Below the pieces are notes generated by a model. It made no database searches and was not told the DNA's origin. It worked only from the letters and a program-made list of their open reading frames with translations. From contig JAFXCL010000023.1 of assembly GCA_017521485.1 (NCBI GenBank), positions 1 through 34,223 of the forward strand: a stretch of DNA of 34,223 nucleotides, in the 5' to 3' direction. A program made the translations under genes and the position numbers. The stretch is from Oscillospiraceae bacterium (GTDB lineage: Bacteria; Bacillota; Clostridia; Oscillospirales; Oscillospiraceae). Shown in pieces: positions 2,497 to 23,156 of this stretch; the stretch's first letter is position 1, and each line of letters begins with the position of its first letter.

Positions 2497-2525
2497 TTGC
2501 TTTTTGGGAGGAAATGGGTTAAAAT
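2497..2525 (+). promoter_or_regulatory. Sigma-A-like promoter of the capsule locus
   Basis: TTGCTT (2497-2502), a 17-base spacer and TAAAAT (2520-2525) lie 65 bases upstream of the first capsule gene. It is the only clear promoter found in front of the 20.5-kb collinear gene set. Confidence 0.65.
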
Positions 2526-2589
2526 AGAATAGCGAAATTGTCTGCGAGCGGGGGATATCCCGCAAATCAGAAAGAGGAGGCAGACAGCT
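2526..2589 (+). promoter_or_regulatory. Short capsule-operon leader with nested stems around the ribosome binding site
   Basis: The leader contains a small hairpin GCGGG/CCCGC (about 2548-2562). It also contains a 7-bp complementarity between TGTCTGC (2539-2545) and GCAGACA (2580-2586). The second pairing would enclose the first hairpin and abut the AAGAGGAGG ribosome binding site at 2572-2580. Translational control is possible but is inference from pairing alone. Confidence 0.3.
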
Positions 2590-3321
2590 ATGGAAAACAG
2601 CTATTCGTTTTGCGATCTCCACAGTCATATTTTACCCGGAATGGACGATGGATGCCAGACGGTTGATGAATCAGTACAGGTGCTCCGTTCTTGTTATGAG
2701 CAGGGCATCCGGAAAATCTGCGCAACACCCCACTACTATCCGGTGGAGTCTGTAGATGAGTTTCTGGCACGCCGGGATGCATCTGCCCAGGAGTTACATA
2801 AAGCGTTGGAGAAGGAAACTATGCCTGTTCCTAAAATCTGCCTGGGTGCAGAGGTGGCATACCGCCCGGGTATATGCTATCAGGAGGATCTGGACAAGCT
2901 GTGTATCGGCAGTTCCCAGTATCTGCTTCTGGAAATGCCCTTTCACCAGTGGGGAGAAGAGGTGATCCGGACAGTGCGGGGTATTTCCAATGTCCGGGGC
3001 ATTACGCCGATCCTTGCCCATATTGAGCGTTACCTGCCCATGCAGGAAAAGGAAGTGCTGGAACGCCTTTTGGATCAGGAGATCCTGGTGCAGATGAACG
3101 CGGCACGGCTGCTGCATTTTGCAACCCGGGGACAGGCCCGTCGATTGCTGATAAACGGTACTGTCCAGCTGTTGAGCTCGGATTGCCACAACAATACATC
3201 CAGACCGCAAAACATCTCCCAAGCAGTAGCGTACCTGCAGAAGAAGGGTATGGATGCGGTGCTGGAGGAATTATCCCGCCGCAGCCGGAGAATTTTCCGG
3301 GAGGCCACAGGCGAAAAATAA
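2590..3321 (+). CDS. cpsB: CpsB/CapC-family tyrosine-protein phosphatase (PHP fold)
   Basis: This 243-residue protein matches the manganese-dependent PHP phosphatases CpsB/YwqE. In the family these dephosphorylate the tyrosine-rich tail of a capsule autokinase and so control polymer length or export. Metal-binding motifs are DLHSHILPGMDDG (H11, H13, D19), ATPHYYP (H48), LGAEVAYRPG, LAHIERY and SSDCHNN near residue 200. The ATG follows AAGAGGAGG. It is the first gene after the locus promoter. Its usual partners, the CpsC/Wzd adaptor and CpsD/Wze kinase, are not beside it. Either they are encoded elsewhere or the protein acts on another target. Confidence 0.9.
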   Translation: MENSYSFCDLHSHILPGMDDGCQTVDESVQVLRSCYEQGIRKICATPHYYPVESVDEFLARRDASAQELHKALEKETMPVPKICLGAEVAYRPGICYQEDLDKLCIGSSQYLLLEMPFHQWGEEVIRTVRGISNVRGITPILAHIERYLPMQEKEVLERLLDQEILVQMNAARLLHFATRGQARRLLINGTVQLLSSDCHNNTSRPQNISQAVAYLQKKGMDAVLEELSRRSRRIFREATGEK

Positions 3322-3357
3322 GCAGAGCAGACTGCTCTGGATTGCAGGAGAATGGTT

Positions 3358-5382
3358 ATGAGTGAAAAACCCAAGTTTAGCAAGCGGTTTGAGCATTGGC
3401 ACATAATGGCGCTTCTACTGGCTGTATTTGATGTTATTGCAGTAAATTTCTCTTATTTTCTGGCGCTTTGGTTTCGGTTTGACTGTATGTATTCCGAGAT
3501 TCCTTGGAATGAATATATGGTGCCATTCCTTAAATTTGCGCCCATATATGCCCTTGTTTGCCTGTTTGTATTTTGGAGATTTCGTCTATATAACAGCATC
3601 TGGAGATTTGCCAGCGTTACGGAGATGACAAGAGTAACCTTGGCAACCACGGTTACTTCGGTAGTACATATTTTTGGAATTACATTCCTGTTTAACAGAA
3701 TGCCTATTTCCTATTACATTATCGGTATGGGCATCCAGTTTTTGCTGGTGCTTGGTGCTCGCTTCTCTTACCGTTTTATTCTGTTGGAAAAGAACAAGAT
3801 CCAGAGGGGAAGCAATGTAGAACGGGCAATGCTGATCGGTGCAGGCAATGCAGGTCAAGGGATTTTACGGGATGTAGCCCGTATGCAGGGAGAAAAAATA
3901 AAAGTTTGCTGCATCATTGACGACAATCCCAATAAATGGGGTCGGTATATTGACGGAATTCCTGTAGTAGGCGGCAGGGATGACATTTTAGCCAATGTAG
4001 AAAAATACACGATCAAAAAAATACTGATTGCCATTCCCAGTGCCAGCGCTGAGGACAAGCGGGATATTTTGAATATCTGCAAGGAAACCGGCTGTGAAAT
4101 GAAAAATCTGCCCGGTGTCTATCAACTGCTTTCCGGTCGGGTCACTATGGCAAGCATGAAGGATGTGGCAGTGGAAGATCTGCTGGGCAGAGAGCCGGTT
4201 AAGGTCAATATGTCCGAGATCTACAGGGAAATTCAGGGAAAAACCATTCTTGTAACCGGTGGCGGCGGATCCATCGGCAGTGAGCTTTGCCGCCAGGTGG
4301 CAGCGCACAATCCCAGGCAGCTGATTATCTTCGATATCTATGAGAACAATGCCTATGATATCGAACAGGAACTGCGGCGAGAATATCCCGGTTTGAAATT
4401 AGAAGTGCTAATTGGATCGGTTCGGGACAGTCGGCGTATTGACAGTGTTTTCGCAGAGTATAAGCCGGATATGGTGTATCATGCAGCAGCCCATAAGCAC
4501 GTGCCGCTGATGGAAGGCAGCCCCTGCGAAGCTATTAAAAACAATGTGATCGGTACATATAAGACGGCTTATGCGGCGCTGATCCACGGATGCAAGCGGT
4601 TTGTGCTTATCAGCACAGATAAGGCGGTAAATCCCACCAACATTATGGGCGCCAGCAAACGGCTTTGCGAGATGGTGATCCAGAGCTTTGACCGGGCGGT
4701 GAAAACCGGCTGCGCAAAGAACCTGCCGATGCTTTTTACCCACCGGGAGGATGGGCAAGAGATTGGGTCGGAAGAAAACAAGCGTGCCTTCTGTACAGAA
4801 TTTGTGGCAGTGCGGTTTGGCAATGTCTTGGGAAGCAACGGTTCGGTGATCCCGCTGTTTAAGAAGCAGATCGAAAACGGTGGTCCGGTAACGGTAACCC
4901 ACCCGGATATTATCCGTTATTTTATGACGATCCCGGAAGCGGTGAGCCTGGTTATGCAGGCAGGCGCTTATGCCAGCGGCGGCGAGATCTTTGTGCTGGA
5001 TATGGGTCAGCCGGTAAAAATCGATGAACTGGCGCGAAATCTCATTAAGCTTTCCGGACTGAAACCGGATGTGGATATTCAGATCCAGTACACCGGACTC
5101 AGACCCGGTGAAAAGCTTTATGAGGAAAAGCTGATGGCAGAAGAGGGTATGCAGCGAACAGACAATGAGCTGATCCACATTGGAAACCCCATCCCCTTTG
5201 ATACGGATGTGTTTTTGGTACAGCTGCAGCAATTGATGACAGCTGCTTACGAAAATAACTGTGATATTTCGAAAATAGTGGAACAAATGGTATCCACGTA
5301 TCACCCGGAAGCTGCGTGCAGCGGGGAAAAGGATCAGAAGTATAAAGAAATTTTCACAAAGCCGGAATTGGTAAAGATTTAA
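3358..5382 (+). CDS. Membrane-bound NDP-sugar 4,6-dehydratase (PglF/CapD/WbpM family)
   Basis: This 674-residue protein has about four N-terminal membrane helices (roughly residues 15-140). A first nucleotide-binding fold follows (AMLIGAGNAGQGI), then the catalytic SDR domain with TGGGGSIGSELCRQ, YHAAAHKHVPLMEG and STDKAVNPTNIMGASKR. Met replaces the usual catalytic Tyr, as is typical of this subfamily. Family members convert UDP-GlcNAc to the UDP-4-keto-6-deoxy sugar. Start choice: the ATG at 3358 sits seven bases after AGGAG, whereas the in-frame ATG at 3352 touches it. The aminotransferase and phosphoglycosyl transferase genes follow, as in bacillosamine-type pathways. Confidence 0.93.
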   Translation: MSEKPKFSKRFEHWHIMALLLAVFDVIAVNFSYFLALWFRFDCMYSEIPWNEYMVPFLKFAPIYALVCLFVFWRFRLYNSIWRFASVTEMTRVTLATTVTSVVHIFGITFLFNRMPISYYIIGMGIQFLLVLGARFSYRFILLEKNKIQRGSNVERAMLIGAGNAGQGILRDVARMQGEKIKVCCIIDDNPNKWGRYIDGIPVVGGRDDILANVEKYTIKKILIAIPSASAEDKRDILNICKETGCEMKNLPGVYQLLSGRVTMASMKDVAVEDLLGREPVKVNMSEIYREIQGKTILVTGGGGSIGSELCRQVAAHNPRQLIIFDIYENNAYDIEQELRREYPGLKLEVLIGSVRDSRRIDSVFAEYKPDMVYHAAAHKHVPLMEGSPCEAIKNNVIGTYKTAYAALIHGCKRFVLISTDKAVNPTNIMGASKRLCEMVIQSFDRAVKTGCAKNLPMLFTHREDGQEIGSEENKRAFCTEFVAVRFGNVLGSNGSVIPLFKKQIENGGPVTVTHPDIIRYFMTIPEAVSLVMQAGAYASGGEIFVLDMGQPVKIDELARNLIKLSGLKPDVDIQIQYTGLRPGEKLYEEKLMAEEGMQRTDNELIHIGNPIPFDTDVFLVQLQQLMTAAYENNCDISKIVEQMVSTYHPEAACSGEKDQKYKEIFTKPELVKI

Positions 5383-5458
5383 AAAGCGGAACAGATATGA
5401 AAGAAGATTTTGCAACGATGTACAGCGCCCGGCACAAAGGAATTGAGGAAACAAGCTT

Positions 5459-6724
5459 ATGAAGATGGAAAAGTTCGAAAACAGAATATGGCTTGCTTCA
5501 CCGACAATGCACGGTGACGAAATGAAGTATGTTCAGCAGGCATATGAAACCAACTGGATGAGCACAGTGGGCGAGAACATCAACGAAGTGGAGCGCATTG
5601 CTGCCCAAAAAGCGCAGATGCAGTATGGCGTTGCCCTTTCTTGCGGTACTGCTGCCCTTCACCTGGCGGTCAGACACGCAGGAGAAACCCTTTATGGCAA
5701 GGCTCCCATTGGACAGGGTGCTTTAGCCGGCAAGCGGGTTTTCTGTTCGGATATGACTTTCGATGCCACTGTAAATCCGGTTGTGTACGAGGGCGGTATT
5801 CCTGTATTTATTGACACAGAAGCAGAGTCCTGGAATATGGATCCTGTAGCCCTTGAAAAAGCATTTGAATTTTATCCGGATGTGAAGCTGGTAGTGTCTG
5901 CCGAGTTATATGGTTTTCCCGGCCGAATGGATTTGATTAAAGAAATTTGTCAAAAGCACGGCGCACTTTTGGTTGAGGATGCGGCAGAGGCAATGGGCGC
6001 AACCGTATGCGGTAAGCAGTGCGGATCTTTTGGTGATTACTCGGCAATCAGCTACAACGGCAACAAAATCATCACAGGTTCTGCCGGCGGCTGTTTACTG
6101 ACCAATGATATTGAGGTGGCAAATAAAGCACGGAAATGGTCCACACAGGCAAGAGAAAATGCACCTTGGTATCAGCACGAAGAGGTGGGCTATAACTACC
6201 GTATGAGCAATGTGATCGCCGGTGTTGTGCGGGGACAGTACAACTATCTTGAAGAACATATTGCACAGAAAAAGGCAATTTACGAAAGATACTGTGAAGG
6301 CTTTAAGGATCTCCCGGTACAAATGAATCCCATTGTAAAAGATACCGAGCCGAACTATTGGCTCTCCGGTATGATTATTGACAGGGATTATATGTGCAAG
6401 CAGGTCAGAGATGATTCAACAGCCTTGTACATAGCTGAAACAGGAAAGACCTGTCCTACAGAAATTCTGGAAACCCTTGCAAGCTATAATGCTGAGGGCA
6501 GACCGATTTGGAAGCCTATGCATATGCAGCCGATGTACCGGATGCACGAGTTTATTACCCGCAGCGGCTCTGCCCGTGCAAAGACAAATGCGTATATTGC
6601 TGGCGGTGCACCGGATGTGGGTGCGGATATTTTTGAGCGGGGCCTTTGCCTGCCCAGTGACAATAAGATGACCCCGGAGCAGCAGGCGATTATTATCGAG
6701 ATCATCAAAGGCTGCTTTCAGTAA
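5459..6724 (+). CDS. PLP-dependent UDP-4-amino-sugar aminotransferase (DegT family, PglE/WcfR-like)
   Basis: This 421-residue protein is of the DegT/DnrJ/EryC1/StrS family. The PLP lysine is K203 in SYNGNKIITG, and D174 lies in VEDAAEAMG. The block STQARENAPWYQHEEVGYNY and the later RPIWKPMHMQPMY closely resemble Campylobacter PglE as I remember it. PglE adds an amine at C4 of the UDP-4-keto-6-deoxy-GlcNAc made by the preceding enzyme class. The likely product is UDP-2-acetamido-4-amino-2,4,6-trideoxyhexose. GAGG ten bases upstream supports the ATG. No PglD-type N-acetyltransferase is present nearby, so the 4-amino group may stay free. Whether the product is gluco or galacto cannot be told. 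Confidence 0.92.
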   Translation: MKMEKFENRIWLASPTMHGDEMKYVQQAYETNWMSTVGENINEVERIAAQKAQMQYGVALSCGTAALHLAVRHAGETLYGKAPIGQGALAGKRVFCSDMTFDATVNPVVYEGGIPVFIDTEAESWNMDPVALEKAFEFYPDVKLVVSAELYGFPGRMDLIKEICQKHGALLVEDAAEAMGATVCGKQCGSFGDYSAISYNGNKIITGSAGGCLLTNDIEVANKARKWSTQARENAPWYQHEEVGYNYRMSNVIAGVVRGQYNYLEEHIAQKKAIYERYCEGFKDLPVQMNPIVKDTEPNYWLSGMIIDRDYMCKQVRDDSTALYIAETGKTCPTEILETLASYNAEGRPIWKPMHMQPMYRMHEFITRSGSARAKTNAYIAGGAPDVGADIFERGLCLPSDNKMTPEQQAIIIEIIKGCFQ

Positions 6725-6744
6725 AAAGACCGAGGAACAACTTT

Positions 6745-7383
6745 ATGTACGAAAAGTGTTTTAAAAGATTGTTGGATCTTGCTTTGTCTGTGATTGCGAT
6801 TGTTGTGCTTTCTCCTGTGCTGTTGGTTTTGACGGTGGTGGGAGCAATCGCAATGGGCGGAAATCCTTTTTTTGTCCAGATGCGTCCGGGCAAAAAAGGC
6901 AAGGACGGTCAGGAGAAGATTTTTAAGCTGATCAAGTTCCGCACTATGACCAACAAGAAAGACGAAAAAGGAAATCTTTTGCCCGATGAGCTGCGGCTTA
7001 CGAAATACGGAAGATTTTTGCGGTCCACTTCCTTAGATGAGCTGCCGGAACTCTTTAATATCGCAATCGGGGATCTGGCGATCTGCGGACCCAGACCGCT
7101 GCTGGTCCGGTATCTGGAGCGATACACGCCGGAGCAGCGCCGCCGCCACGATGTTCGGCCCGGTCTAACGGGACTTGCACAGGTCAATGGCCGGAACGCC
7201 ATTACCTGGGAAGAGAAGTTCAAGCTGGATGTTACTTATGTGGATAACATCACATTTCTCGGCGATATGAAGATCATTCTGGCAACGGTGAGAGCTGTGC
7301 TGAAGCGAGAGGGCATCAGCTTCGAAAATTCTGCCACAATGGAAGAGTTTATGGGAACAGAGCAAAAGACTGCTCAGCCCTAA
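6745..7383 (+). CDS. Monotopic phosphoglycosyl transferase (PglC-like), initiates repeat-unit synthesis
   Basis: At 212 residues this is the size of the minimal PglC-type bacterial sugar transferases. It has a single N-terminal hydrophobic re-entrant segment (about residues 12-38), the block IKFRTMTNKKDEKGNLLPDE, the catalytic Asp-Glu dyad D98-E99 in TSLDELPELFN, and CGPRPLLVRYL and VRPGLTGLAQVNGRN. The family moves a sugar-1-phosphate from a UDP sugar onto undecaprenyl phosphate at the inner leaflet. The close PglC resemblance and the two preceding genes suggest the 4-amino-trideoxy sugar as donor. GAGG upstream supports the ATG. There is no large Wba-type N-terminal membrane domain. Confidence 0.93.
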   Translation: MYEKCFKRLLDLALSVIAIVVLSPVLLVLTVVGAIAMGGNPFFVQMRPGKKGKDGQEKIFKLIKFRTMTNKKDEKGNLLPDELRLTKYGRFLRSTSLDELPELFNIAIGDLAICGPRPLLVRYLERYTPEQRRRHDVRPGLTGLAQVNGRNAITWEEKFKLDVTYVDNITFLGDMKIILATVRAVLKREGISFENSATMEEFMGTEQKTAQP

Positions 7384-7393
7384 GGGAGTACAT

Positions 7394-8482
7394 ATGAAAG
7401 TTTTAGTGCTTGCCAATAACGATGGAGGACTGTACCGCTTTCGAAAGGAATTGTTAGAAGCCCTGGTCGCAAATGGCCACCAGGTGTATATTTCTCTCCC
7501 CTGGGGGGAACGGGTAGAGGATCTGAAAGAGATCGGATGTACCTACATTGAAACAAATATGGACCGGAGAGGTATGAATCCGCTGAAGGATATGAAGCTG
7601 TTTTTCCACTACAGAAAAATTATTCGAACGGTGAAGCCGGACCAAATTATCACATATACCATTAAGCCCAATATCTACGGAGGCTTTGCAGCCCGGCTTG
7701 CGAAGATCCCTTATGCATTGACTATTACTGGACTGGGAAGCGCTTTTCAGAAAAAGGGTATACTGCGGAAAATGGTTACTATGATGTATAAAATAGCCTG
7801 TGGCAAGGTTCATGTGGTCTATTTTGAAAACACAGGAAATCAGAAAGTATTCCTTCAGGAGAAGATTGTCCGGGAGGACACAACCTGTGTACTGAATGGC
7901 GCAGGTGTGAATCTGGAAGATTTCCCATACGAGCCTTACCCTATGGATCCCGGGCCGACCCGCTTTTTGTTTGTAGGTCGCGTTATGCGGGAGAAGGGTG
8001 TGGATGAACTGCTGAATGCTATGAAGGCTTTGCGACAGGAAGGACAAGACTGCACTCTGGAGATTTTGGGCGGTTATGAAGAAGATTATATAGAGACGAT
8101 CCGTCATTGCGAAGAGAGCGGTTGGCTAAAATATCATGGCTTCCAGCCGGATGTCAGACCTTTTATGGCGGCGTGCCACTGTTCTGTATTGCCTTCCTGG
8201 CATGAGGGAATGTCTAACACAAACCTGGAAGCTGCTGCAACCGGACGGCCAATTATTACCAGCAATGTATATGGATGCAAAGAAGCGGTGCTAAATAATG
8301 AAAGTGGCTTTTTGGCGGAGGCTGGAAATTGGGAAAGCTTGTATCAAGAGATGAAGCGCTTTTTGGAATTGTCTCCAGAGCAACGCCACGCAATGGGTGA
8401 AGCCGGCCGCAGACATATCGAAGCCCAATTCGATAAAAAGGTAGTTGTGAAAAAGACACTGGAGCGGCTTTTTGTCAACTAA
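7394..8482 (+). CDS. GT4 glycosyltransferase, PglA-like (second sugar)
   Basis: This 362-residue protein is a GT-B fold, retaining GT4 enzyme. The N-terminal half has MKVLVLANNDGGLYRFRKEL and NPLKDMKLFFHYRKII, the second echoing PglA. The C-terminal donor domain has FLFVGRVMREKGVDELL and the E-x7-E motif HEGMSNTNLEAAATGRP. PglA adds the second sugar onto undecaprenyl-diphospho-bacillosamine, and the gene sits right after the PglC-like enzyme, so the same step is likely here. GGGAG lies before the ATG. Donor and acceptor sugars cannot be deduced. Confidence 0.9.
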   Translation: MKVLVLANNDGGLYRFRKELLEALVANGHQVYISLPWGERVEDLKEIGCTYIETNMDRRGMNPLKDMKLFFHYRKIIRTVKPDQIITYTIKPNIYGGFAARLAKIPYALTITGLGSAFQKKGILRKMVTMMYKIACGKVHVVYFENTGNQKVFLQEKIVREDTTCVLNGAGVNLEDFPYEPYPMDPGPTRFLFVGRVMREKGVDELLNAMKALRQEGQDCTLEILGGYEEDYIETIRHCEESGWLKYHGFQPDVRPFMAACHCSVLPSWHEGMSNTNLEAAATGRPIITSNVYGCKEAVLNNESGFLAEAGNWESLYQEMKRFLELSPEQRHAMGEAGRRHIEAQFDKKVVVKKTLERLFVN

Positions 8483-8508
8483 GATGAAAGATAAGATGGG
8501 GTGAAGAA

Positions 8509-9564
8509 ATGAAAGTGGTATTCTTTATGGGAAGTATGTGCCGCGGTGGTGCAGAACGAGTAATTTCCATCCTATCCAATGATTTTTGTGCTCGCGGTTG
8601 GGATGTGCAGATTGCATTGCTCCTGCGAAATAAAGTGGAGTATGAATTAGATTCCCGCATTCAGATCGTGGACTTAACCGGAAAACATACTTCCTATATT
8701 AAAAATGCGGCATCCTGGATAGGGAAGATCAGAAGATTTCTGAAAGATACCCACCCAGACCGTGTAGTATCGTTTGCAGGCCGCATCAACGCTTTAGTGC
8801 TAACTGCTGCGGCAGGTCTTAAGCTTCCGGTTATCGTTTCAGAACGCAACGATCCGAAGCACGACGGCCGGGGACGGCTTATGCGTTGGTATTGTGATAC
8901 CATATATTTTCGTGCAAAAGCGATCGTTTTTCAAAACAACTATGAGCGCAGCTGTTTTTCTTCTGCCCACGAATCACACAGCTATGTTATCCCGAACCCA
9001 ATCCGTGTAACAGCACTGAAAACGCAAAAAGAAGCCAGCGATCGGGTGATTGCCACAGCCGGACGGCTGACGGGTCAAAAAAACCAAAAAATATTGATAT
9101 CTGCGATGAAACAGGTTTGCCAGGTCTATCCGCAGACCAAATGCCGGATCTATGGAGATGGAGAACTGCAGAACAGCCTGCAAGAACAGATCAATGACTT
9201 GCAGTTGCAAGATGCAGTATCTTTAGAAGGAAATGTAGCGGACATCCATGAAAGACTGGCGCAGAGTGATTTATTTGTGATGACATCGGAGTTTGAAGGC
9301 TTGTCCAATGCTTTGGTTGAGGCAATGATGATGGGCCTGCCGTGTATATCAACAAATTACCCCGGTGTTGAAGAATTGATTCGGAATGATGAAAACGGTT
9401 TGCTGGTTCCTTGTGGGGATGATACCGCATTGGCAGAAGCAATCATAAAATTAATCGGGGATTCGGCTTTTATGGAATGCCTTGCACAAAAAGCCAAAGA
9501 AACTGCCGAAGCCTATCGTGTGGAAGTCGTGATTGACTTGTGGCGCAAGGTGATAGAACTGTAA
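8509..9564 (+). CDS. GT4 glycosyltransferase (first of a paralogous pair)
   Basis: This 351-residue GT4 enzyme starts MKVVFFMGSMCRGGAERVIS, a GGAER acceptor-side signature. It carries VIVSERNDP, the donor-domain start TAGRLTGQKNQKILI and the E-x7-E motif SEFEGLSNALVEAMMMGLP. It is clearly paralogous to the protein at 12699-13799 (shared GGAERV, VIVSERNDP, FEG..NAL.EAM..GLPCIS). Both are followed immediately by a TupA-like gene. The stop TAA overlaps the next gene's spacer by chance only. It presumably adds one sugar of the repeat unit on the cytosolic side; specificity is unknown. Confidence 0.9.
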   Translation: MKVVFFMGSMCRGGAERVISILSNDFCARGWDVQIALLLRNKVEYELDSRIQIVDLTGKHTSYIKNAASWIGKIRRFLKDTHPDRVVSFAGRINALVLTAAAGLKLPVIVSERNDPKHDGRGRLMRWYCDTIYFRAKAIVFQNNYERSCFSSAHESHSYVIPNPIRVTALKTQKEASDRVIATAGRLTGQKNQKILISAMKQVCQVYPQTKCRIYGDGELQNSLQEQINDLQLQDAVSLEGNVADIHERLAQSDLFVMTSEFEGLSNALVEAMMMGLPCISTNYPGVEELIRNDENGLLVPCGDDTALAEAIIKLIGDSAFMECLAQKAKETAEAYRVEVVIDLWRKVIEL

Positions 9565-9587
9565 TGGATATAAAGAGGAGTGCCAAA

Positions 9588-10466: not shown

Positions 10467-10472
10467 TACCGC

Positions 10473-12673: not shown

Positions 12674-12698
12674 GCTTTAGTACTGGGAGGTGTGTGCA

Positions 12699-13799: not shown

Positions 13800-13825
13800 A
13801 TGTGGTACACAAAGAGGAATTTGGA

Positions 13826-14731: not shown

Positions 14732-14744
14732 AGTATGAATTTTA

Positions 14745-14767: not shown

Positions 14768-14797
14768 GTTAGCGGTAACAGTTAAGGGCATATATTT

Positions 14798-16183
14798 ATG
14801 AAACGAATTATATTAAGAGTAGACGGAAAACACAGTACCGTCCGGGGCGGGAAAATCATATTGGACCAAGGAAGGCAGCAGGCAATTTTTATTATGCTGT
14901 TTACTGTGCTGTATTTGTTTCGCGATCTGGCGGGAGTAAATGTTCCGGATCTTATATTTTCAGGACTGTGTGCAGTAGCCTTTGTTTTGATGGACAGGGG
15001 AACATCTCTGGGAATATATATTTTCACAACGGCACTGACTGTTCCTCACAACGAGATCGTTATTGTTTATTTGGTGATATCTCTTTATAAGATGTTTTCT
15101 TCCGGCAAGGTGCAGCTAAACGGTAGAATGTTCCTTATGAACATAGGACTACTATTCCTGCAACTACTGAACATGACAATGTTCTCAAAAAGTTCAGTCA
15201 ATGGTGTGCTCTATGATTATATTACAAGAATGCTGATTATCTTTGTGCCTGTGTTCTGGTGCAATGATGCGTATTCTGCGGAAGATTTCCGGAGCGCGTT
15301 GCTGTGTTATGTAGCAGGTGCTATATTGGGCGGAACAGTAACAATGATACTAACTGCCGATGTTTTAACTTGGGAAGCCCTTCTGAAGGGAACGGGCGGC
15401 AGCCGACTGGGAAGAACCTGGAAAGCACAGCAGGGTATGCAGACATCCTATAATTCCAATCAGCTTGCTGTTATGTTTGCAATTTCTGTAGCGATCATTT
15501 TGCAATATATAGATAAAAAAAGAATATCCAAAACGCTTGGCATTGTTCTGGCAGGCTATTCTTTGTTCCTGATATTCCTGACCCGTTCCAGAACCGGACT
15601 TTTGGTAACAGCAATGGCTGCCATAATCTATTATCTGATACTGGTTGTCCGCAGAAAAAAACTGTTTGCCGGTATTTTACTGTTAGGGATAATAGGAGCA
15701 ATGGTTTTTGCGGTAGCAACATTTATACCAGATATATTTCAGTCTGTGATTGAACGGTTTGTGGGTGAGGAAGATATCTCAAACGGAAGAATTACAATAT
15801 TTACTTATTACATACAGGAATGGGTGAGAGACCCGTGGTGCTTCTTCTTTGGCTTCGGAATAGGATCTTATTATGATGCACTTGGGATATATACATCTCC
15901 GCATAATGCTGTAACAGATATTTTGATCTCACTGGGACTTGTGGGAATGATCATTATTGCGGGAATAATTGGAATATGTTACAATCTGGGAACCAAATCA
16001 ATTGATAAGAAGGAACGGGTTCTTGCATTATTGCCAGCATTGGTGGCGTTAATAGCCTGTATGGGAGGTCAGTATATATCAGAGGGATATCCTCACACAC
16101 GCCTTTGCTTTCTGCTTTTAGCTGCACAGGCTGTTTTGGAGAGGAATGATCTCAATCAGCAGGGCAAGAAAGAAATAAAATAA
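14798..16183 (+). CDS. wzy: Wzy-type repeat-unit polymerase (O-antigen polymerase/ligase family)
   Basis: The 461-residue polytopic protein has about ten or more membrane segments. A large outer loop contains the typical Wzy_C-like stretch WVRDPWCFFFGFGIGSYY, then SPHNAVTDILISLGLVG. Two arginines in SRLGRTWKAQ and LTRSRTGLL fit the charged loops of polymerases. In a Wzy-dependent system it joins flipped repeat units at the outer face of the membrane. The ATG follows AAGGG by nine bases. The gene is AT-richer than its upstream neighbours. A ligase role cannot be excluded on sequence alone, but the position next to the flippase favours a polymerase. Confidence 0.85.
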   Translation: MKRIILRVDGKHSTVRGGKIILDQGRQQAIFIMLFTVLYLFRDLAGVNVPDLIFSGLCAVAFVLMDRGTSLGIYIFTTALTVPHNEIVIVYLVISLYKMFSSGKVQLNGRMFLMNIGLLFLQLLNMTMFSKSSVNGVLYDYITRMLIIFVPVFWCNDAYSAEDFRSALLCYVAGAILGGTVTMILTADVLTWEALLKGTGGSRLGRTWKAQQGMQTSYNSNQLAVMFAISVAIILQYIDKKRISKTLGIVLAGYSLFLIFLTRSRTGLLVTAMAAIIYYLILVVRRKKLFAGILLLGIIGAMVFAVATFIPDIFQSVIERFVGEEDISNGRITIFTYYIQEWVRDPWCFFFGFGIGSYYDALGIYTSPHNAVTDILISLGLVGMIIIAGIIGICYNLGTKSIDKKERVLALLPALVALIACMGGQYISEGYPHTRLCFLLLAAQAVLERNDLNQQGKKEIK

Positions 16184-16259
16184 ACGGAATATGTATATTT
16201 GGAAGAAGTATTTGGAAATTATATCCATAATTGGAAGATTCAGACAGGAGAACAAATAG

Positions 16260-17759
16260 ATGGGCAAACAATCATCGGGAAAAAAAGTAATATTAAATGC
16301 AGTGATCTATTCGTGCAGTGGATTGCTCTTAAAATGTGTTAGCTTTTTTTTACTGCCGTTATATACGATCTATCTGACAACAGAAGATTACGGTATTACC
16401 AGTATTGTTGGCACGTTTAATGGGACAATGTGCTATGTTGTGTCTTTTTCGTTGTTCTCTGCAGTTACACGCTTTTATGTCGAGCTAAAAGAGGACCCAG
16501 AAAAACTAAAGCGTTTCTATGGAACAATTTGTACATTTGTATTTTTATCTGGTTTAACATTTGGCGGACTTTTTACAATATTTAGAGGAGCTTTATCCAA
16601 ATATGTTTTTTCTGGGCTTGATTTTTATCCAGTTATCTTAATTTGTATTATTTCACTTATTTTTAATTGTGAGTATACAATTTATGATATGATATTGAAA
16701 AGTCAGCAAAAGGCAATGAAAAGCTCGATTATAAGCATTGTGTTTTTCTTTATATCTTTAGCACTGAACATTCTTTTTATTGTTGTGCTTCAAATGGGCG
16801 CAACAGGTTCTCTTTTGGCAACACTTATAAGCTATGTGTTATATACAGCTTATTTTTTGACAGAGATGAGCTTACAGAAAACGATTCACTTCTGTATAGA
16901 TTGGGGCCTTTTGAAGGACGCGTTGAAATACTCTATACCGATTATGCCACACAACCTGTCTACCCATTTGGCACTGCTGATTTCGAAAATTATGATTGGA
17001 GGAACAGCCTCATTATCGGGCTTGGGTGTTTATACAGTGGCAGCGCAGTTTGGTAATGTGGCAGATACAATCCAGGGATATGTATCTAGAGCGTATAGCC
17101 CTTGGCTGTTTGAAAACTTACATGATCGAGAAGGTTATTACAAAGCAAGAATTCGAAAAATTACAAATTTAATGAGTTCAGTTGTGGGACTCTTCATGCT
17201 GGGAATAGCGTTGTTTGCGCAGGATTATATAGTGTTGTTTGTGGATGCTGCATACATAGATGCGTGGAGATATGTACCACTGATTGTAATAAACTATATT
17301 ATTAAAATAGCTTATTATTTCTATGTACAGATCCTGTTTTACTATAAAAAGGCGTCTAAAATGCTCTTTATAGCAACGGTGTCAGGCAGTTTAATTAATA
17401 TTGTTCTTTCGTATTTTATGATTCCCGCATGGGGAGTCTATGGATCTATTATAGCGGATTGGATTGCGATGATTATCCGAGTGGGAATTGTGATCGGTGT
17501 TAGTAAGATGTTTGAAGATGTGGGATTAAGAGTATGGGATACTGTTAAAAATATGCTATTTATCGGCGTGTTTGTCCTGGGCGGTATGGTATTTTCCTAT
17601 TTAAAATTCGGAAACACATTTTCTATTGGTAACTTTGTTTATAAGATTGTTGTCGTACTGGTATATGTAGCAGTGCTGTTTGCCCGTTACCACAAAGAAC
17701 TGTTAGAGTATATACGCGGTATCAAGAAAGGCAGAAGCAGGAAGGAACAGCTGCAATGA
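16260..17759 (+). CDS. wzx: Wzx-type flippase (polysaccharide exporter, MATE/MOP fold)
   Basis: This 499-residue polytopic protein has 12-14 predicted membrane helices. It opens with VIYSCSGLLLKCVSFFLLPL and LTTEDYGITSIVGTFNG, the pattern of the polysaccharide-synthesis flippases. Family members move undecaprenyl-diphosphate-linked repeat units to the outer leaflet. AGGAG nine bases upstream supports the ATG. The last four bases overlap the next gene (ATGA), implying translational coupling. This is the most AT-rich gene of the locus, as often found for wzx genes in exchanged capsule clusters. Confidence 0.9.
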   Translation: MGKQSSGKKVILNAVIYSCSGLLLKCVSFFLLPLYTIYLTTEDYGITSIVGTFNGTMCYVVSFSLFSAVTRFYVELKEDPEKLKRFYGTICTFVFLSGLTFGGLFTIFRGALSKYVFSGLDFYPVILICIISLIFNCEYTIYDMILKSQQKAMKSSIISIVFFFISLALNILFIVVLQMGATGSLLATLISYVLYTAYFLTEMSLQKTIHFCIDWGLLKDALKYSIPIMPHNLSTHLALLISKIMIGGTASLSGLGVYTVAAQFGNVADTIQGYVSRAYSPWLFENLHDREGYYKARIRKITNLMSSVVGLFMLGIALFAQDYIVLFVDAAYIDAWRYVPLIVINYIIKIAYYFYVQILFYYKKASKMLFIATVSGSLINIVLSYFMIPAWGVYGSIIADWIAMIIRVGIVIGVSKMFEDVGLRVWDTVKNMLFIGVFVLGGMVFSYLKFGNTFSIGNFVYKIVVVLVYVAVLFARYHKELLEYIRGIKKGRSRKEQLQ

Positions 17760-18907
17760 AACACTGGAAAGAACGGATTATTCGTGCGTATTTTCATATT
17801 GTTCGAATGGTGCTGGGTATAAATAAGAAAAAGGTTGTGTTTATCAGTTTCGGAGGAAAGTCATATTCGGACAACCCGAGAGCCATTTCTGAGGCATTAG
17901 CCACGGAAAAAACGGAAGCGGAAATCGTTTGGTTATTCATAAATCCCACAGATAAAAAATGCATCGTTTCAGATGGGATTCGTTGTGTGGATGTCAGTCG
18001 GCCGTGGAGAGTTCGCAAAGAGATCGCAACCGCTTCTGTGTATGTAAATAACTTTGCACTTTCCAATTTACCTAAAAGCAATAAACAACTTTTTATCCAG
18101 ACTTGGCATGGGGATAAGGCATTTAAGAAAGTGCTGCATGATGAGCAAGGGTGGCCACCGGATAAGGTGCTTGGTGAGCAGATTCCGGGAATGTGTGATT
18201 ATGCAATTGCGGGATCTGATTACGGTGAGCGCCAATACCGTTCCGCATTCTTATACAAAGGCAATGTGCTAAAGTGTGGAATGCCCCGAAACGACCGGCT
18301 GATATTGCAGGATGAGCAAGAAAAAGAGCGGATTCGAAAGAAACTGAACTGCTCTCAGGAAACACAACTTTTGCTGTATGCACCTACATTACGCAGAGAA
18401 GAAGCGCAAAAGAAAGTGGCGTTGGAAATTAAGCAGCTTGATATAACCAAAACACTTACTATGTTGGAAGAGCGAGATCACTGCAAGTGGATCTGCTTAA
18501 TGCGCGCCCATCCTAAGATGGTTGGACTAAGTTACCAAGGGGAAGATGAGCGGATTGTGGATGTTTCTGAATATGAAGATATGGGAGATCTGCTGCTGAT
18601 CTCAGATATGCTGATTACAGACTATTCTTCCTGCGCCGGTGATTTTGCCTTAACTGGGCGGCCTGTTGTGTTATTTCATGCAGATCGGCAGGAGTATCTG
18701 AAAGATAGAAGTTTCTACTTTGATATGGATGAAAGTCCGTATTATATCGCAGAATCCCAGGAGGAGTTGGAAGCAATTCTGTCAGGTTTGACACAAGAAA
18801 AAGCAAAGCAAAATTGCAAAGAGATTCTAAAGTTTTACGGTGATTGCGAAACTGGTCATGCGTCGGAAACGGTTGCAAAAATCATTAAGGACTGGATTGA
18901 ACGATAA
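17756..18907 (+). CDS. CDP-glycerol glycerophosphotransferase-family protein (TagB/TagF-like)
   Basis: The 383-residue protein matches the Glyphos_transf GT-B family. Visible blocks are FIQTWHGDKAFKK (conserved His), AGSDYGERQYRSAF, CGMPRNDRL, LLYAPTLRREE, CLMRAHPKM and ISDMLITDYSSCAGDFALTG. Relatives transfer a polyol phosphate from a CDP-polyol to wall teichoic acid or to capsule. The start overlaps the wzx stop. The next gene encodes a cytidylyltransferase fusion that could supply its donor, so the two probably form a polyol-phosphate decoration or linkage module. It could act on the nascent lipid-linked unit. The polyol (glycerol, ribitol or other) is not identifiable. Confidence 0.9.
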   Translation: MKHWKERIIRAYFHIVRMVLGINKKKVVFISFGGKSYSDNPRAISEALATEKTEAEIVWLFINPTDKKCIVSDGIRCVDVSRPWRVRKEIATASVYVNNFALSNLPKSNKQLFIQTWHGDKAFKKVLHDEQGWPPDKVLGEQIPGMCDYAIAGSDYGERQYRSAFLYKGNVLKCGMPRNDRLILQDEQEKERIRKKLNCSQETQLLLYAPTLRREEAQKKVALEIKQLDITKTLTMLEERDHCKWICLMRAHPKMVGLSYQGEDERIVDVSEYEDMGDLLLISDMLITDYSSCAGDFALTGRPVVLFHADRQEYLKDRSFYFDMDESPYYIAESQEELEAILSGLTQEKAKQNCKEILKFYGDCETGHASETVAKIIKDWIER

Positions 18908-18922
18908 GAAAGCAGGGGTAAT

Positions 18923-20080
18923 ATGAGCAAAGCGCTGGTAGTAGGCGGAAATAGCGGAATTGGTCTGGCAATGGTTATGAAGTTGCTGGACAAGGGCTAC
19001 GAACATATTTATATTGCCGGCAAGGATGCACCAAGAGCAGAGGATGTGGGCTTGCATTGGGAGCGGTTTCAGCAGAAGACAAGCTTTCGCCGTGTGGATC
19101 TGGTGCAGGAAAACTATTCGTATTTTGACACTGTGACGGATATTGACACGCTGGTGATCACCGCCGGTTTTGGTCGGGTCGCACCTTTTGAAGAACTGAC
19201 AGAGCCGGAAGTAACCAACCTGATCAAATGCAATCAGCTTGGTGCAATTCGGGTGATACAAAAGTACTATAAAAAGATCCGAAGCAGCCAGCCGTTTTAT
19301 TGCGCAGTGATGGGCAGTATTGCAGGACATATTGCGTCCCCCCTGTTTTCTGTTTACGGAGCATCGAAAGCTGGTCTTTGTGCCTTTATTGAGAATATAA
19401 ATGCTGAGCTAAATGCACAGGGCTATGAAAACCGCATTTTGGATGTTTCTCCCGGATCTCTAAAAGGAACAAACTTCAACGGAACCGGAAATGACCTGTC
19501 TTTGACAATGGATGTGGCAGGGGAAATTCTGGAGAATATGTTTGCAAGAAAGGCACTGTATATTCCCCAGTATGATGAGGTTTATCGGGATGTTTTGAAT
19601 CGTTATCATACCGATCCGGTGAAGTACGGCAAGGAAAGCTACGAGTATAAGCAAAACAGCGGGAGGATGTCTGAAAAGCCCCAAGTGGTTGTAGGCTATC
19701 TCAGTGGAACCTTTGATCTGTTCCACATTGGACACTTAAATCTTCTCCGCAGAGCCAAGGAACAGTGTGATTATCTGATCGTAGGCGTACATAAAAGCGG
19801 CGCGTGGAAGGGAAAGGAGACCTTCATTCCCTTTGAAGAGCGGTTGGAGATTGTGGGAAGTATCGGTTATGTAGACCGTGCGATCGAATCCTTTACGGAG
19901 GATTCCGATGCCTATGATGCATTGCATTATGACAAACTGTTTGTGGGGAGCGATTACAAGGGAACAGAACGGTTCGCCCGCTACGAAGCATATTTTGCGG
20001 ACAAAGGTGTGGAAATCGTCTATTTCCCCTACACAAAGGGAACAAGCAGTACGCAATTGCGTGAGGCACTGAAAAAATAA
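18923..20080 (+). CDS. Bifunctional SDR oxidoreductase / TagD-like cytidylyltransferase (CDP-polyol synthesis)
   Basis: This 385-residue fusion has two domains. Residues 1 to about 215 are a short-chain dehydrogenase with GGNSGIG (8-14), TAGFG and a correctly spaced S132-Y145-K149 triad. Residues about 252-385 are a glycerol-3-phosphate cytidylyltransferase-type domain with GYLSGTFDLFHIGHLNLL (HIGH at 268-271) and GTSSTQLREALKK. A charged linker joins them. The natural reading is that the first domain reduces a sugar phosphate or ketone to a polyol phosphate and the second makes the CDP-polyol used by the preceding transferase. Haemophilus Bcs1-type enzymes make CDP-ribitol with a cytidylyltransferase-SDR order; here the order is reversed and the cytidylyltransferase is of the small TagD type. 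Confidence 0.88.
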   Translation: MSKALVVGGNSGIGLAMVMKLLDKGYEHIYIAGKDAPRAEDVGLHWERFQQKTSFRRVDLVQENYSYFDTVTDIDTLVITAGFGRVAPFEELTEPEVTNLIKCNQLGAIRVIQKYYKKIRSSQPFYCAVMGSIAGHIASPLFSVYGASKAGLCAFIENINAELNAQGYENRILDVSPGSLKGTNFNGTGNDLSLTMDVAGEILENMFARKALYIPQYDEVYRDVLNRYHTDPVKYGKESYEYKQNSGRMSEKPQVVVGYLSGTFDLFHIGHLNLLRRAKEQCDYLIVGVHKSGAWKGKETFIPFEERLEIVGSIGYVDRAIESFTEDSDAYDALHYDKLFVGSDYKGTERFARYEAYFADKGVEIVYFPYTKGTSSTQLREALKK

Positions 20081-20133
20081 AAAATTCTCAAAACATTTTT
20101 AAAGAAAGATATCGTGAAAAAGGAGGGACTTTT

Positions 20134-21174
20134 GTGGAAGGCATAAAAAAGTTGACGTTAGTCAATCCAGACGATACTAAAATGATAAAAAATGATAAGC
20201 CGAGAATGGATTGGCTGGATGCATTGCGGGCACTTGCTATGCTTTTTGTGATATATGGGCACACATATAAACAAAGTGAATTCTTTTTGTTTACCAGCCC
20301 TGTAAAAGTCCCTATGTTTTTTGCGATAACAGGATATTTGCTGTATGGTAAAACTGAAGATATCAAAACCTTTCTAAACCGGATCCTTCACAAGATCGTA
20401 ATACCGTGGCTTATATTATCCTTAGGTTTTGGACTGCGGTTCATTCTAACACAGGGATTTGCGTATTATGCAAACCTCGCAGTGGAAACACTGATTGGAA
20501 AGCAGTCTTGGTTTATGGTTTGCTTAATCATAGCGCAGACTCTCTTTTATTTCTTACAAAAAATATTTGGCTCCGGATGGAAGTTAGGCATAGCTGTTTT
20601 GCTGATTACTGCAGGAGGACTGACACTAAGTGCTTTTGGAGTGGGAGATCTGTTTCAGTTCAGGACAGCACTAATTTGTCAGTTTTATCTATTAATCGGT
20701 TACTGGCTTAAAAAGTATGAAAGTAAGCTTCAAGGCTTAAAGGTATGGATGTGCCTGGGATGGCTAGGTGTATATCTGGCATTGGTGATTGCAAGTGTGT
20801 TCTTATTCCCGAAACGCACACTTGATATCCATATGGATGAGTATTACAACATTCCTTATTGTTTTCTTTTGATTACAGTAGGATGTAGTGCGCTGTTTGT
20901 TTGTGCGCAGCGGATAAAAAAGTTCCCCAGATGGCTTTGCGCCATTGGGCGAAATACATTGGTTTACTATGAGCACGATATTTTTTGGAGAGGAATGGCA
21001 GGAAGAGTATTCTCTTTGCTGGCAATCTCTATACCGGCCACTTGGTATGGCGGGTTGATTTGGCTGATTATCAGCTGTGTTGGATGTGGATTTGAGGCAT
21101 ATATTTTGAATAGATTTTTCCCGGAAGCTAACGGAAAAAAACGCAAGAAGAAAGTTGTACAGACAGGTGCATAA
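20134..21174 (+). CDS. Acyltransferase-3 family membrane protein (O-acetylation type)
   Basis: The 346-residue protein has about ten membrane helices and the family-opening motif MDWLDALRALAMLFVIYGHT, whose His is the presumed acyl-transfer residue, followed by KVPMFFAITGYLLYG. Family 3 acyltransferases (OafA/WecH-like) move acetyl or other acyl groups from the cytosol onto glycans across the membrane. The start is GTG at 20134, seven bases after AGGAGG. In this locus it most likely O-acetylates the polysaccharide. It is not a soluble PglD-type N-acetyltransferase and so does not fill that gap. Confidence 0.85.
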   Translation: MEGIKKLTLVNPDDTKMIKNDKPRMDWLDALRALAMLFVIYGHTYKQSEFFLFTSPVKVPMFFAITGYLLYGKTEDIKTFLNRILHKIVIPWLILSLGFGLRFILTQGFAYYANLAVETLIGKQSWFMVCLIIAQTLFYFLQKIFGSGWKLGIAVLLITAGGLTLSAFGVGDLFQFRTALICQFYLLIGYWLKKYESKLQGLKVWMCLGWLGVYLALVIASVFLFPKRTLDIHMDEYYNIPYCFLLITVGCSALFVCAQRIKKFPRWLCAIGRNTLVYYEHDIFWRGMAGRVFSLLAISIPATWYGGLIWLIISCVGCGFEAYILNRFFPEANGKKRKKKVVQTGA

Positions 21175-21214
21175 ATGATTTTATCCTGTGTGGTGCAATG
21201 TCGTTGGAGGCTAT

Positions 21215-22390
21215 ATGAACTGTACTGAAATTTATGAATCCATATATAAGAAGCCGCCGGCGGATGTGGCGTTTTGTCCCTATCGGGTGTGCCCGGTGGG
21301 TGCCCATGTGGATCACAACCAGGGAAAAATTACCGGCTTAGCGCTGGATAAAGGCATCCACATTGCATACAGCCCTAAGATGAATGGCGTTGTGGAGCTG
21401 GTTTCCCTGCAATTTTCCAAGCGTGCCCAGTGGCATGTGGCGGCTGTGCCGGAGGTAAAGGAAAACGACTGGGCAGACCAGCTTCGGGGTGCAACACTGA
21501 TGCTCGCCCAGAAATATCGCCTGACAGTGGGTCTGTGTGGCGTGGTAGAAGGTAGTTTGCCCATTGGCGGACTTTCTTCTTCTGCGGCGGTCATTCTTGC
21601 CTTTTTGTGCGCACTGTGCAAGGTTAACGGGCTGAACCTTTCTGATCAGGAGCTGATCCTGACAGCACAGGCTGCGGAAAACAAATATGTGGGTGTCTCC
21701 TGCGGTCTGCTGGACCAGTGCTGTGAGGTCTATTCCAAAAAAGACCACCTTTTGTATCTGGACACAAAGGATTGCAGCTATGAACGGATCCCTACTCCCG
21801 CCAACATGAAGCCCTATAAGATCGCCATTTTCTTCTCTGGCTTGGAGCGGAGCCTTGCCAGTTCCAAGTACAATCTGCGGGTGGATGAGTGCCGCAGCGC
21901 AGCTTATTCCATGTTGGCGTTTGCGGGTATGGAATATGGAAAGATCGCAGATACCAATCTGCGGGATGTCCCTTATGAAATCTACTTGCAATATAAGGAC
22001 CGTTTGCCCGATCCCTTTGCCAAGCGGGCAGAGCATTATTTTCAGGAAATGCAGCGGGTCGAGAAAAGTGTGGAAGCCTGGCGGCGGGGCGACATTGAAG
22101 AGTTTGGCAAGCTGTCCTTTGAAAGCGGCCACAGTTCTATTTATAATTATGAAGCCGGCTCTCCGGAATTAAAAGCGCTGTATGAAATTATGGTGCACAC
22201 CGATGGCATTTATGGCGGACGGTTCTCCGGTGCGGGCTTCAAAGGCTGCTGTATGGCACTGATAGATCCGGCTTATGAAGAACCAATCGCAGAAACAGTC
22301 AAGCGGGAGTACTTAAAGAAATTCGCCGATCTGACTGATAAATTCTCCGTACATATCTGCCAAAGCGCCGATGGAGTGGGAAGCTTATGA
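21215..22390 (+). CDS. Galactokinase-family (GHMP) sugar-1-kinase, galacturonokinase-like motif
   Basis: The 391-residue protein has the galactokinase-type signatures YRVCPVGAHVDHNQG (residues 23-37), the GHMP ATP loop PIGGLSSSAAV (116-126), GLLDQC with the catalytic Asp D167, and GAGFKGCCMAL near the C terminus. Galactokinases read GEHTDY at the first motif; here it is GAHVDH, with Ala for Glu. As I recall, plant galacturonic acid kinase carries the same substitution (CPLGAHIDH). The start is ATG 21215, four bases after GGAGG; an in-frame GTG 27 bases upstream has no site. The stop overlaps the nucleotidyltransferase gene, so the two form a salvage pair: sugar to sugar-1-phosphate to NDP-sugar. 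Confidence 0.85.
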   Translation: MNCTEIYESIYKKPPADVAFCPYRVCPVGAHVDHNQGKITGLALDKGIHIAYSPKMNGVVELVSLQFSKRAQWHVAAVPEVKENDWADQLRGATLMLAQKYRLTVGLCGVVEGSLPIGGLSSSAAVILAFLCALCKVNGLNLSDQELILTAQAAENKYVGVSCGLLDQCCEVYSKKDHLLYLDTKDCSYERIPTPANMKPYKIAIFFSGLERSLASSKYNLRVDECRSAAYSMLAFAGMEYGKIADTNLRDVPYEIYLQYKDRLPDPFAKRAEHYFQEMQRVEKSVEAWRRGDIEEFGKLSFESGHSSIYNYEAGSPELKALYEIMVHTDGIYGGRFSGAGFKGCCMALIDPAYEEPIAETVKREYLKKFADLTDKFSVHICQSADGVGSL

Positions 22391-23121
22391 AATGTTTGAT
22401 TTTAGCGGCGGGATATGCTACCCGGCTGTATCCCTTAACAGAAAATTTCCCCAAGCCCTTACTTAAGGTGCAGGAGAAAACGATCCTAGACTGGCTGGTG
22501 GACGATCTGGATACTGCCGGATTGATCGATGAATATGTGGTGATCTCCAACCACCGGTTTGCCCACCATTTTGCCCACTGGGCAAAGACCAAACCCCAAA
22601 AGATTACCGTAGTAGATGACGGAACAAGTACCAACGAGACCCGTTTGGGTGCGGTGAAGGACATCCAGTTTGCCATCGAGAGCCAAAAGCTGGATGACGA
22701 TATGATCGTCATCGCAGGCGACAATGTGCTGTCCTTCAGCCTGACAAAATTTGTCCGTTACGCAAAGGAAAAGAATACGCCCTGTATTATGCGCTATTAC
22801 GAGGTAGATCCCAAGAAGCTGTCCAAAAGCGGTGTGGTGGAGATCGATGAAAATGACCGGGTGCTGTGTATGGAGGAAAAGCCTGCTAAGCCTCGATCCA
22901 ACTGGTGCTGCCCGCCTTTCTATTACTACACGAAGGAAGCAGCCAAAATGGTATCAACCGGCATCGACTCCGGCTGCGGTACAGATGCCCCCGGCAGCTT
23001 TATTGCCTGGCTTTGCAAGAAGTTACCTGTCCACGCAATGGAGATGCCCGGCAGACGCTATGATATTGGAAATATTCAGAGCTATGAGCAAGTCCAAAAG
23101 GAATATCAAGGAATCAAATAA
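22387..23121 (+). CDS. Sugar-1-phosphate nucleotidyltransferase
   Basis: This 244-residue single-domain NTP transferase has LAAGYATRLYPLTENFPKPL at the N terminus (activating Arg13 and Lys23), IAGDNVLS with the metal-binding Asp, and VCMEEKP-like CMEEKPAKP before a short C-terminal part. It lacks the left-handed helix domain of GlmU and the extra domain of RmlA. It is closest in layout to the compact MurU/HddC/GMPP-type enzymes. The start codon overlaps the kinase stop (ATGA), so the pair is translationally coupled and the kinase product is the probable substrate. Nucleotide and sugar are not determinable. It is the last gene before the locus terminator. Confidence 0.88.
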   Translation: MKCLILAAGYATRLYPLTENFPKPLLKVQEKTILDWLVDDLDTAGLIDEYVVISNHRFAHHFAHWAKTKPQKITVVDDGTSTNETRLGAVKDIQFAIESQKLDDDMIVIAGDNVLSFSLTKFVRYAKEKNTPCIMRYYEVDPKKLSKSGVVEIDENDRVLCMEEKPAKPRSNWCCPPFYYYTKEAAKMVSTGIDSGCGTDAPGSFIAWLCKKLPVHAMEMPGRRYDIGNIQSYEQVQKEYQGIK

Positions 23122-23122
23122 G

Positions 23123-23156
23123 AAAACAGCCTGACGGCTTGCCGTCAGGCTGTTTT
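23123..23156. terminator. Perfect bidirectional terminator between capsule locus and thrS
   Basis: A perfect 16-bp stem (23123-23138 with 23141-23156) is flanked by AAAA on one side and TTTT on the other. It can therefore stop the capsule transcript on the plus strand and thrS on the minus strand. It lies between the two convergent stop codons. Confidence 0.9.

Follow-up and report, generated by a model that had tools for sequence, protein, structure and literature searches.

A probable galacturonic acid salvage pair in a capsule-type polysaccharide locus of an Oscillospiraceae bacterium

Organization of the polysaccharide locus

The 34,223-nucleotide stretch analysed here (the window; contig JAFXCL010000023.1 of GenBank assembly GCA_017521485.1, from an Oscillospiraceae bacterium) carries a polysaccharide locus made up of 18 collinear plus-strand open reading frames (ORFs) between positions 2590 and 23121 (Table 1). 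Its last two genes encode a galactokinase-like GHMP kinase and a sugar-1-phosphate nucleotidyltransferase, a pair that recurs in many other gut bacteria, whose probable role is to activate galacturonic acid obtained by salvage, and that is the strongest and most testable part of the locus. The locus is flanked by an M42 peptidase gene (1310-2437) and thrS (23167-25227), both on the minus strand. Intergenic gaps range from -25 to +76 bases, and the G+C content is 44.9%, compared with 51.0% in the remaining window. An initiating transferase, glycosyltransferases, Wzx and Wzy were found within one operon, and the assignment of the 18 predicted genes to a Wzx/Wzy-type capsule or wall-polysaccharide locus was considered certain enough. 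A first-pass annotation of this DNA had described a capsule locus of 18 collinear genes holding amino-sugar, polyol-phosphate and uronate-type modules; the ORF layout and the Pfam families bore out both points, with Pfam matches for every module that it named. Because nearly all NCBIfam matches of the locus proteins fell under the curated cut-offs, genes are named at the family level, and all functions given below are family-level predictions. The host genome is a draft of 1.46 Mb, estimated to be 83.9% complete.

Table 1. Predicted genes of the polysaccharide locus, in window coordinates
Position	Strand	Predicted product	Supporting match
2590..3321	+	CpsB/CapC-type PHP phosphatase (capsule regulation)	PF19567 E 2.8e-41
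3352..5382	+	PglF-like membrane UDP-GlcNAc 4,6-dehydratase, retaining type	PF02719 + CoA_binding_3; 5bju E 6.5e-83
5459..6724	+	PglE-like aminotransferase, to UDP-4-amino-4,6-dideoxy sugar (predicted)	PF01041; PDB 1o61 4.5e-62, 4ztc 2.1e-61
6745..7383	+	PglC-like initiating phosphoglycosyl transferase	PF02397 E 3.1e-55
7394..8482	+	Family 4 glycosyltransferase (GT4)	PF00534 E 1.5e-31
8509..9564	+	GT4 glycosyltransferase	PF00534 E 4.8e-39; PglH-like 150 bits, under cut-off
9540..10466	+	TupA-like ATP-grasp ligase 1	PF14305 E 6.5e-76; model pLDDT 92.6
10473..11588	+	GT4 glycosyltransferase	PF00534 E 5.8e-33
11600..12673	+	NodB/PgaB-like polysaccharide N-deacetylase	PF01522 E 6.1e-24; PgaB 85.8 bits, under cut-off
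12690..13799	+	GT4 glycosyltransferase	PF00534 E 1.1e-33
13802..14731	+	TupA-like ATP-grasp ligase 2	PF14305 E 1.7e-70; 47% identity to ligase 1
14798..16183	+	Wzy-type polymerase	PF04932 E 3.9e-14
16260..17759	+	Wzx-type flippase	PF01943 E 1.2e-11
17756..18907	+	TagF/TarF-like CDP-polyol phosphotransferase	PF04464 E 1.8e-66; TarF 163 bits, cut-off 550
18923..20080	+	Short-chain dehydrogenase/reductase (SDR) fused to TagD-like cytidylyltransferase	PF00106 + PF01467; TIGR01518 73.9 bits, under cut-off
20134..21174	+	Acyltransferase-3 family protein, probable O-acetylation	PF01757 E 6.6e-20
21188..22390	+	Galactokinase-like GHMP kinase, probable galacturonokinase	PF00288/PF10509/PF08544
22387..23121	+	Sugar-1-phosphate nucleotidyltransferase, probable UDP-galacturonate pyrophosphorylase	PF00483 E 9.3e-31

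The kinase and nucleotidyltransferase pair

The kinase ORF, whose true start is probably near position 21215, was modelled as a galactokinase fold (pLDDT 90.2) with human galactokinase as its best match (TM 0.85), and the alignment showed intact catalytic residues, the combination expected of a galacturonokinase. A scan of genome contigs gave 416 kinase relatives, and the results reported here come from the best 80 of these, which were divided by record title into 54 Clostridia and 26 Bacteroidales loci. For the residue comparison, 83 kinases (the 80, that of the window, L008 and L009) were aligned with five galactokinases (L011, L013, L014, L015 and E. coli GalK; L010, L012 and L016-L020 were left out). 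The catalytic Arg28 and Asp174 were kept in all 83. Glu34, which we take to be the galactokinase residue that contacts galactose O6, was replaced by Ala in 83 of 83; Tyr38 was replaced by His in 82 and by Ala in one, and Gly337 by Lys in 82 and by Arg in one. Tyr371 was His in 57 of the 83. A Tyr371His change in GalK is said to confer activity on galacturonic acid; a literature search found no trace of that report, and the identity of residue 371 followed taxon (His in 50/54 Clostridia and 4/26 Bacteroidales loci), so this residue was set aside as a mark of galacturonate use.

Of the 80 loci, 78 have a nucleotidyltransferase gene alongside that of the kinase and 72 have it directly downstream; in the window the two genes overlap. 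The best NCBIfam match of the window nucleotidyltransferase was AglF (UTP-glucose-1-phosphate type), at 88.9 bits against a cut-off of 400. The closest named relatives of the kinase, at 77-78% identity, come from Oscillospiraceae metagenome assemblies. The first-pass annotation had proposed from sequence alone that this kinase and nucleotidyltransferase could supply a uronic acid; that proposal is now better supported, by the Glu34Ala replacement in every relative and by the uronate operon context described below, and these results point to a galacturonokinase of bacteria and its partner in UDP-galacturonate salvage. No paper on a bacterial galacturonokinase was found among the titles and abstracts listed by searches of openly licensed literature.

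Uronate genes near the pair

A gene resembling UDP-glucuronic acid (UDP-GlcA) 4-epimerases was found in 39 of the 80 kinase loci and one resembling UDP-glucose dehydrogenase (Ugd) in 25, with either present in 49. Among loci with full flanks, chosen by length (29 of the 54 Clostridia kinase loci and 15 of 20 control PglE loci), one or the other gene was present in 22/29 kinase loci and 1/15 controls (Fisher 1.4e-5). The Ugd tail, kinase, nucleotidyltransferase and epimerase genes are contiguous in G139, where the contig begins within the Ugd gene, whose tail scored 69.7 bits, under the cut-off. No NCBIfam model matched the epimerase-like protein over its cut-off. Among solved structures this protein matched 5u4q (titled dTDP-glucose 4,6-dehydratase) best and WbgU entries next, and the seventh match, at 131 bits, was 6zl6/6zla (titled 'Epimerase domain-containing protein'), presumably the B. 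cereus UDP-GlcA 4-epimerase. The protein was named UDP-GlcA 4-epimerase-like because of a similarity that we assume to Klebsiella Uge/GlaKP and because of the neighbouring dehydrogenase.

A PF00984 search that was positive in 13 of 14 control genomes found no UDP-glucose dehydrogenase in the draft genome of the host, in which TIGR03026 gave one match of 21.8 bits, far under the cut-off. There was also no close relative of the UDP-GlcA 4-epimerase in this draft, the best being 30% identical. Since no dehydrogenase was found and the epimerase relatives are distant, the pair may be the sole source of UDP-uronate in this incomplete genome. Plasmid annotations contained no uronate name among the records listed (15 of 203).

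For the Bacteroidales kinase loci, 61 of the 109 listed neighbour ORFs, picked by hand, were scanned, and four of the 61 were WbsX-family proteins. Some Bacteroidales loci, L042, L063, L082 and L085 among them, have a gene of the same kind directly upstream of the pair, which in L082 is a glucose-6-phosphate isomerase gene.

The amino-sugar route

The best solved match of the dehydratase was 5bju (titled WlaL), which we take to be C. jejuni PglF. The two share the stretch STDKAV.PTNIMG in the alignment, in which a Met presumably stands in place of the usual SDR Tyr, as in a PglF-type enzyme. The six best solved matches of the aminotransferase were 1o61, 4ztc, one sugar aminotransferase and three perosamine synthetases, and the match to the NCBIfam LegC family was 279 bits against a cut-off of 420. 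Entries 1o61 and 4ztc are titled only 'aminotransferase'; we take both to be C. jejuni PglE, which would place the window enzyme with the PglE type. PglE forms an equatorial, gluco-type 4-amine (QuiNAc4N). The closeness of the aminotransferase to 1o61 and 4ztc, and then to perosamine synthetases, suggests this product in preference to the galacto-configured acetamido-amino-trideoxygalactose (AAT-galactose) of Bacteroides polysaccharide A (PSA) and pneumococcal Sp1, in a comparison drawn from solved structures. The parallel that had been drawn with the AAT sugar of PSA and Sp1 was thus not borne out as stated.

The first-pass description of a PglF/E/C-like set with no pglD in the locus agreed with the Pfam families and solved matches, and no PglD-like gene was found within the locus. 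The same annotation had stated that a pglD-like acetyltransferase elsewhere, acting on the same UDP sugar, would refute its reading. A TIGR03570 (NeuD/PglD) profile search of the draft genome gave four matches, all of them under the cut-off; the strongest, at 56.6 bits, spanned positions 97-202 alone, and one of the four was the N-terminal part of the locus PglF itself. This aminotransferase was present in 30 of 200 family genomes searched; 9 of these 30 had a PglD over the cut-off, and in several relatives a PglD-like gene adjoins the PglC gene. Absence of PglD is real for the host draft genome, yet it is common in relatives and was rejected as an unusual trait, since 20 of the 29 other genomes with this aminotransferase also had no PglD over the cut-off.

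TupA-like ligases, deacetylase and polyol module

Both ligases belong to the TupA-like family, and an ATP-grasp fold was modelled for ligase 1. The best Foldseek matches of this model were ATP-grasp carboxylate-amine ligases at a TM of about 0.4, which indicates the ligase class only, and a sequence search with ligase 1 matched no solved structure. TupA was present in 19 of the 200 family genomes and at 13/29 of the full-flank Clostridia kinase loci, compared with 1/15 control PglE loci (p 0.015). By analogy with C. jejuni Cj1438C, whose TupA-like domain amidates glucuronic acid with serinol phosphate or ethanolamine phosphate (PMC11800379), the window ligases likely amidate a uronate. Amidation of that kind would remove the charge of the uronate unless a charge were introduced with the amine partner. 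Frames of approximately 650-700 amino acids with two tandem TupA-like domains occur in L188, L189 and L190 (G159, G102 and G169), and four successive TupA-like stretches were observed at L096:1589-5212, in a locus that also holds the kinase pair.

The translation of the deacetylase gene contains TFDDGY and HTMTH, which we take to be deacetylase motifs, and no signal peptide was visible in it by eye. This predicted enzyme, omitted from the charge modules of the first-pass annotation, could release another free amine, in the cytoplasm.

The SDR-cytidylyltransferase fusion was found at full length in 3 of the 200 family genomes, the host's own included; its relative in L176 adjoins a TagF-like gene and that in L177 adjoins Ugd- and epimerase-like genes. 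The fusion likely makes a CDP-polyol, and its position beside the TagF-like gene matches the earlier assignment of a CDP-polyol phosphotransferase with its own CDP-polyol enzyme.

Proposed pathway and alternatives

It is somewhat probable that the locus directs synthesis of an undecaprenyl-linked Wzx/Wzy polymer by way of a 4-amino sugar, a salvaged and amidated uronate, and polyol phosphate. PglF and PglE would make UDP-4-amino-4,6-dideoxy-GlcNAc, and PglC would load this sugar on the carrier as the first of the repeat unit. As there is no PglD, the 4-amine would probably be unacetylated at the nucleotide stage. Four GT4 enzymes would lengthen the unit. The GHMP kinase would add a phosphate to C1 of free galacturonic acid, and the product of the overlapping nucleotidyltransferase gene would convert galacturonic acid 1-phosphate to UDP-galacturonic acid, so that the uronate would be salvaged and not made by UDP-glucose dehydrogenase. 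Amide bonds would then come from the two TupA-like ligases, which would most likely join the carboxylate of the uronate to an amine, and the TagF-like enzyme would attach polyol phosphate from the CDP-polyol made by the fusion protein. Gene content, families, folds, the residue signature and neighbourhood statistics were observed, and from these we infer the substrates and the structure of the polymer. The wider proposal, that an apparently uncharacterised pair of gut Clostridia and Bacteroidales feeds free galacturonic acid, for instance that of dietary pectin, directly into surface polysaccharides, and that here it is the only UDP-uronate source found, with the uronate amidated by TupA-like ligases, is held tentatively, at slightly under even chances.

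Several observations weigh against this proposal. Shared descent makes the loci non-independent, and the Fisher tests were uncorrected for it. Kinase relatives of at least 64% identity occurred in only 3 of the 200 own-family genomes, the host's own included, and in none of the three other same-genus genomes listed. In Bacteroidales, residue 371 is mostly Tyr (17/26), only 9 of the 26 kinase loci have an epimerase or dehydrogenase gene, and none of the 26 has TupA. A Ugd/WecC-type dehydrogenase was found in only 6 of 18 other TupA regions, compared with 2 of 19 PglE regions; the link between TupA and uronate is therefore weak at that depth, and TupA beside uronate genes was rejected as a general proof. 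The dehydratase and aminotransferase might belong to the route of a different sugar. Finally, absences from a genome that is 83.9% complete are provisional.

A true zwitterionic capsule of the PSA/Sp1 kind, with a free 4-amine and a free uronate or phosphate in each repeat, is possible though rather unlikely. The first-pass annotation had predicted a zwitterionic or amino-acylated polysaccharide, and part of this stands: the charge-type modules are present, with deacetylase, phosphotransferase and uronate-type genes in one locus and no PglD over the cut-off in the draft genome, and a zwitterion formed from the 4-amine and polyol phosphate is possible on this gene content. The AAT-galactose part was not supported as stated, as the aminotransferase is PglE-like and not a proven AAT-galactose transaminase; in addition, missing PglD is common in relatives and the two TupA-like ligases would probably cap the carboxyls. 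The idea of a zwitterion is of consequence only for a polymer that truly carries both charges.

It is unlikely that the pair activates a different galacto-configured sugar (L-arabinose, D-galactose or D-fucose) or glucuronic acid. Loss of the Glu presumed to bind galactose O6 would fit arabinose as well, many Bacteroidales copies adjoin glucose-6-phosphate isomerase (14 of the 61 neighbours scanned, a further point against galacturonic acid), and the NCBIfam galactokinase model matched the window kinase at 207 bits, only slightly under its cut-off of 226.65. The glucuronokinases of zebrafish and plants belong to the GHMP kinases, and that of zebrafish carries a fused nucleotidyltransferase that has relatives in bacteria; however, galacturonic and glucuronic acid kinases are very diverse in sequence (PMC3938481). 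The window kinase is closest to galactokinase, yet has the Glu34 replacement common to all its relatives, and the operons with UDP-glucose dehydrogenase and UDP-GlcA 4-epimerase-like genes also argue for galacturonic acid over these sugars.

We likewise doubt that the TupA-like ligases act on the 4-amine of the sugar, N-acylating it with an amino acid. Such a reaction would suit a locus that makes an amino sugar, the amino acid ligases among the nearest folds of ligase 1, and the general chemistry of ATP-grasp ligases, which join a carboxylate to an amine. TupA is commoner at kinase loci than at PglE loci, and uronate amidation is the activity of the single characterised TupA-like enzyme that was found (PMC11800379).

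If galacturonic acid salvage by the kinase pair is correct, it opens a way for a pectin sugar of dietary origin into the surface coat of gut bacteria that bypasses breakdown to central metabolism, and gives a function to widespread genes that, to judge from the window gene, are matched as galactokinases only below the cut-off. It might also supply a working relative of the zebrafish pyrophosphorylase domain.

Other features of the window

A cobalamin riboswitch (RF00174) lies at positions 29833-29976 on the plus strand (46.3 bits, gathering threshold 31.5). The DUF4430 protein after it was called at 29843-30496, and its real start must fall downstream of the aptamer. A protein with a Spy0128-like isopeptide-forming pilin-type domain (PF12892) is encoded at 33345-34211 on the minus strand, near the contig end, and is perhaps cut.

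Comparison with known systems

Galactokinases share their fold and catalytic residues with the window kinase family, and differ from it in that Glu34, Tyr38 and Gly337 of the five compared are all replaced in 83 of 83 window-type kinases. Plant galacturonokinase has a PYRxCPxGAHxDH-type motif. In plants, galacturonokinase (At3g10700) and a broad UDP-sugar pyrophosphorylase carry out the same two-step salvage as is proposed here (PMC8636097), whereas the window pair is bacterial, has a small stand-alone nucleotidyltransferase, and belongs to polysaccharide operons. The zebrafish glucuronokinase/putative pyrophosphorylase DrGKUP, like the window pair, combines a GHMP kinase with a short nucleotidyltransferase domain, which is related to stand-alone proteins of Ruminococcus, Prevotella, Alistipes and other bacteria and showed extremely low pyrophosphorylase activity in the assays of that study (PMC3938481). 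DrGKUP differs in being fused and in having a kinase of another branch, and the window nucleotidyltransferase may belong to the bacterial group.

C. jejuni Cj1438C resembles the window ligases as a TupA-like ATP-grasp protein of a capsule locus; its TupA-like domain is fused to a glycosyltransferase family 2 domain and uses serinol phosphate or ethanolamine phosphate (PMC11800379), whereas no amine-donor gene was recognised in the window locus. The B. fragilis PSA (WcfR/WcfS) and Sp1 systems are similar in principle, in that a 4-amino-6-deoxy sugar route is combined with acidic groups. Homologues of wcfR or wcfR/wcfS are used as a marker for zwitterionic capsules (PMC11641655, PMC7230855), and Sp1 contains AAT-galactose and galacturonic acid (PMC10107948). 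The window locus differs from these in its PglE-like aminotransferase, its TupA ligases and its polyol phosphate. The PglF- and PglE-like enzymes, with a PglC-type transferase after them, match the bacillosamine route of C. jejuni; the window differs from that route in having no PglD in the locus or over the cut-off in the draft genome. The C. jejuni route serves N-glycans, whereas the window locus would serve a polymer.

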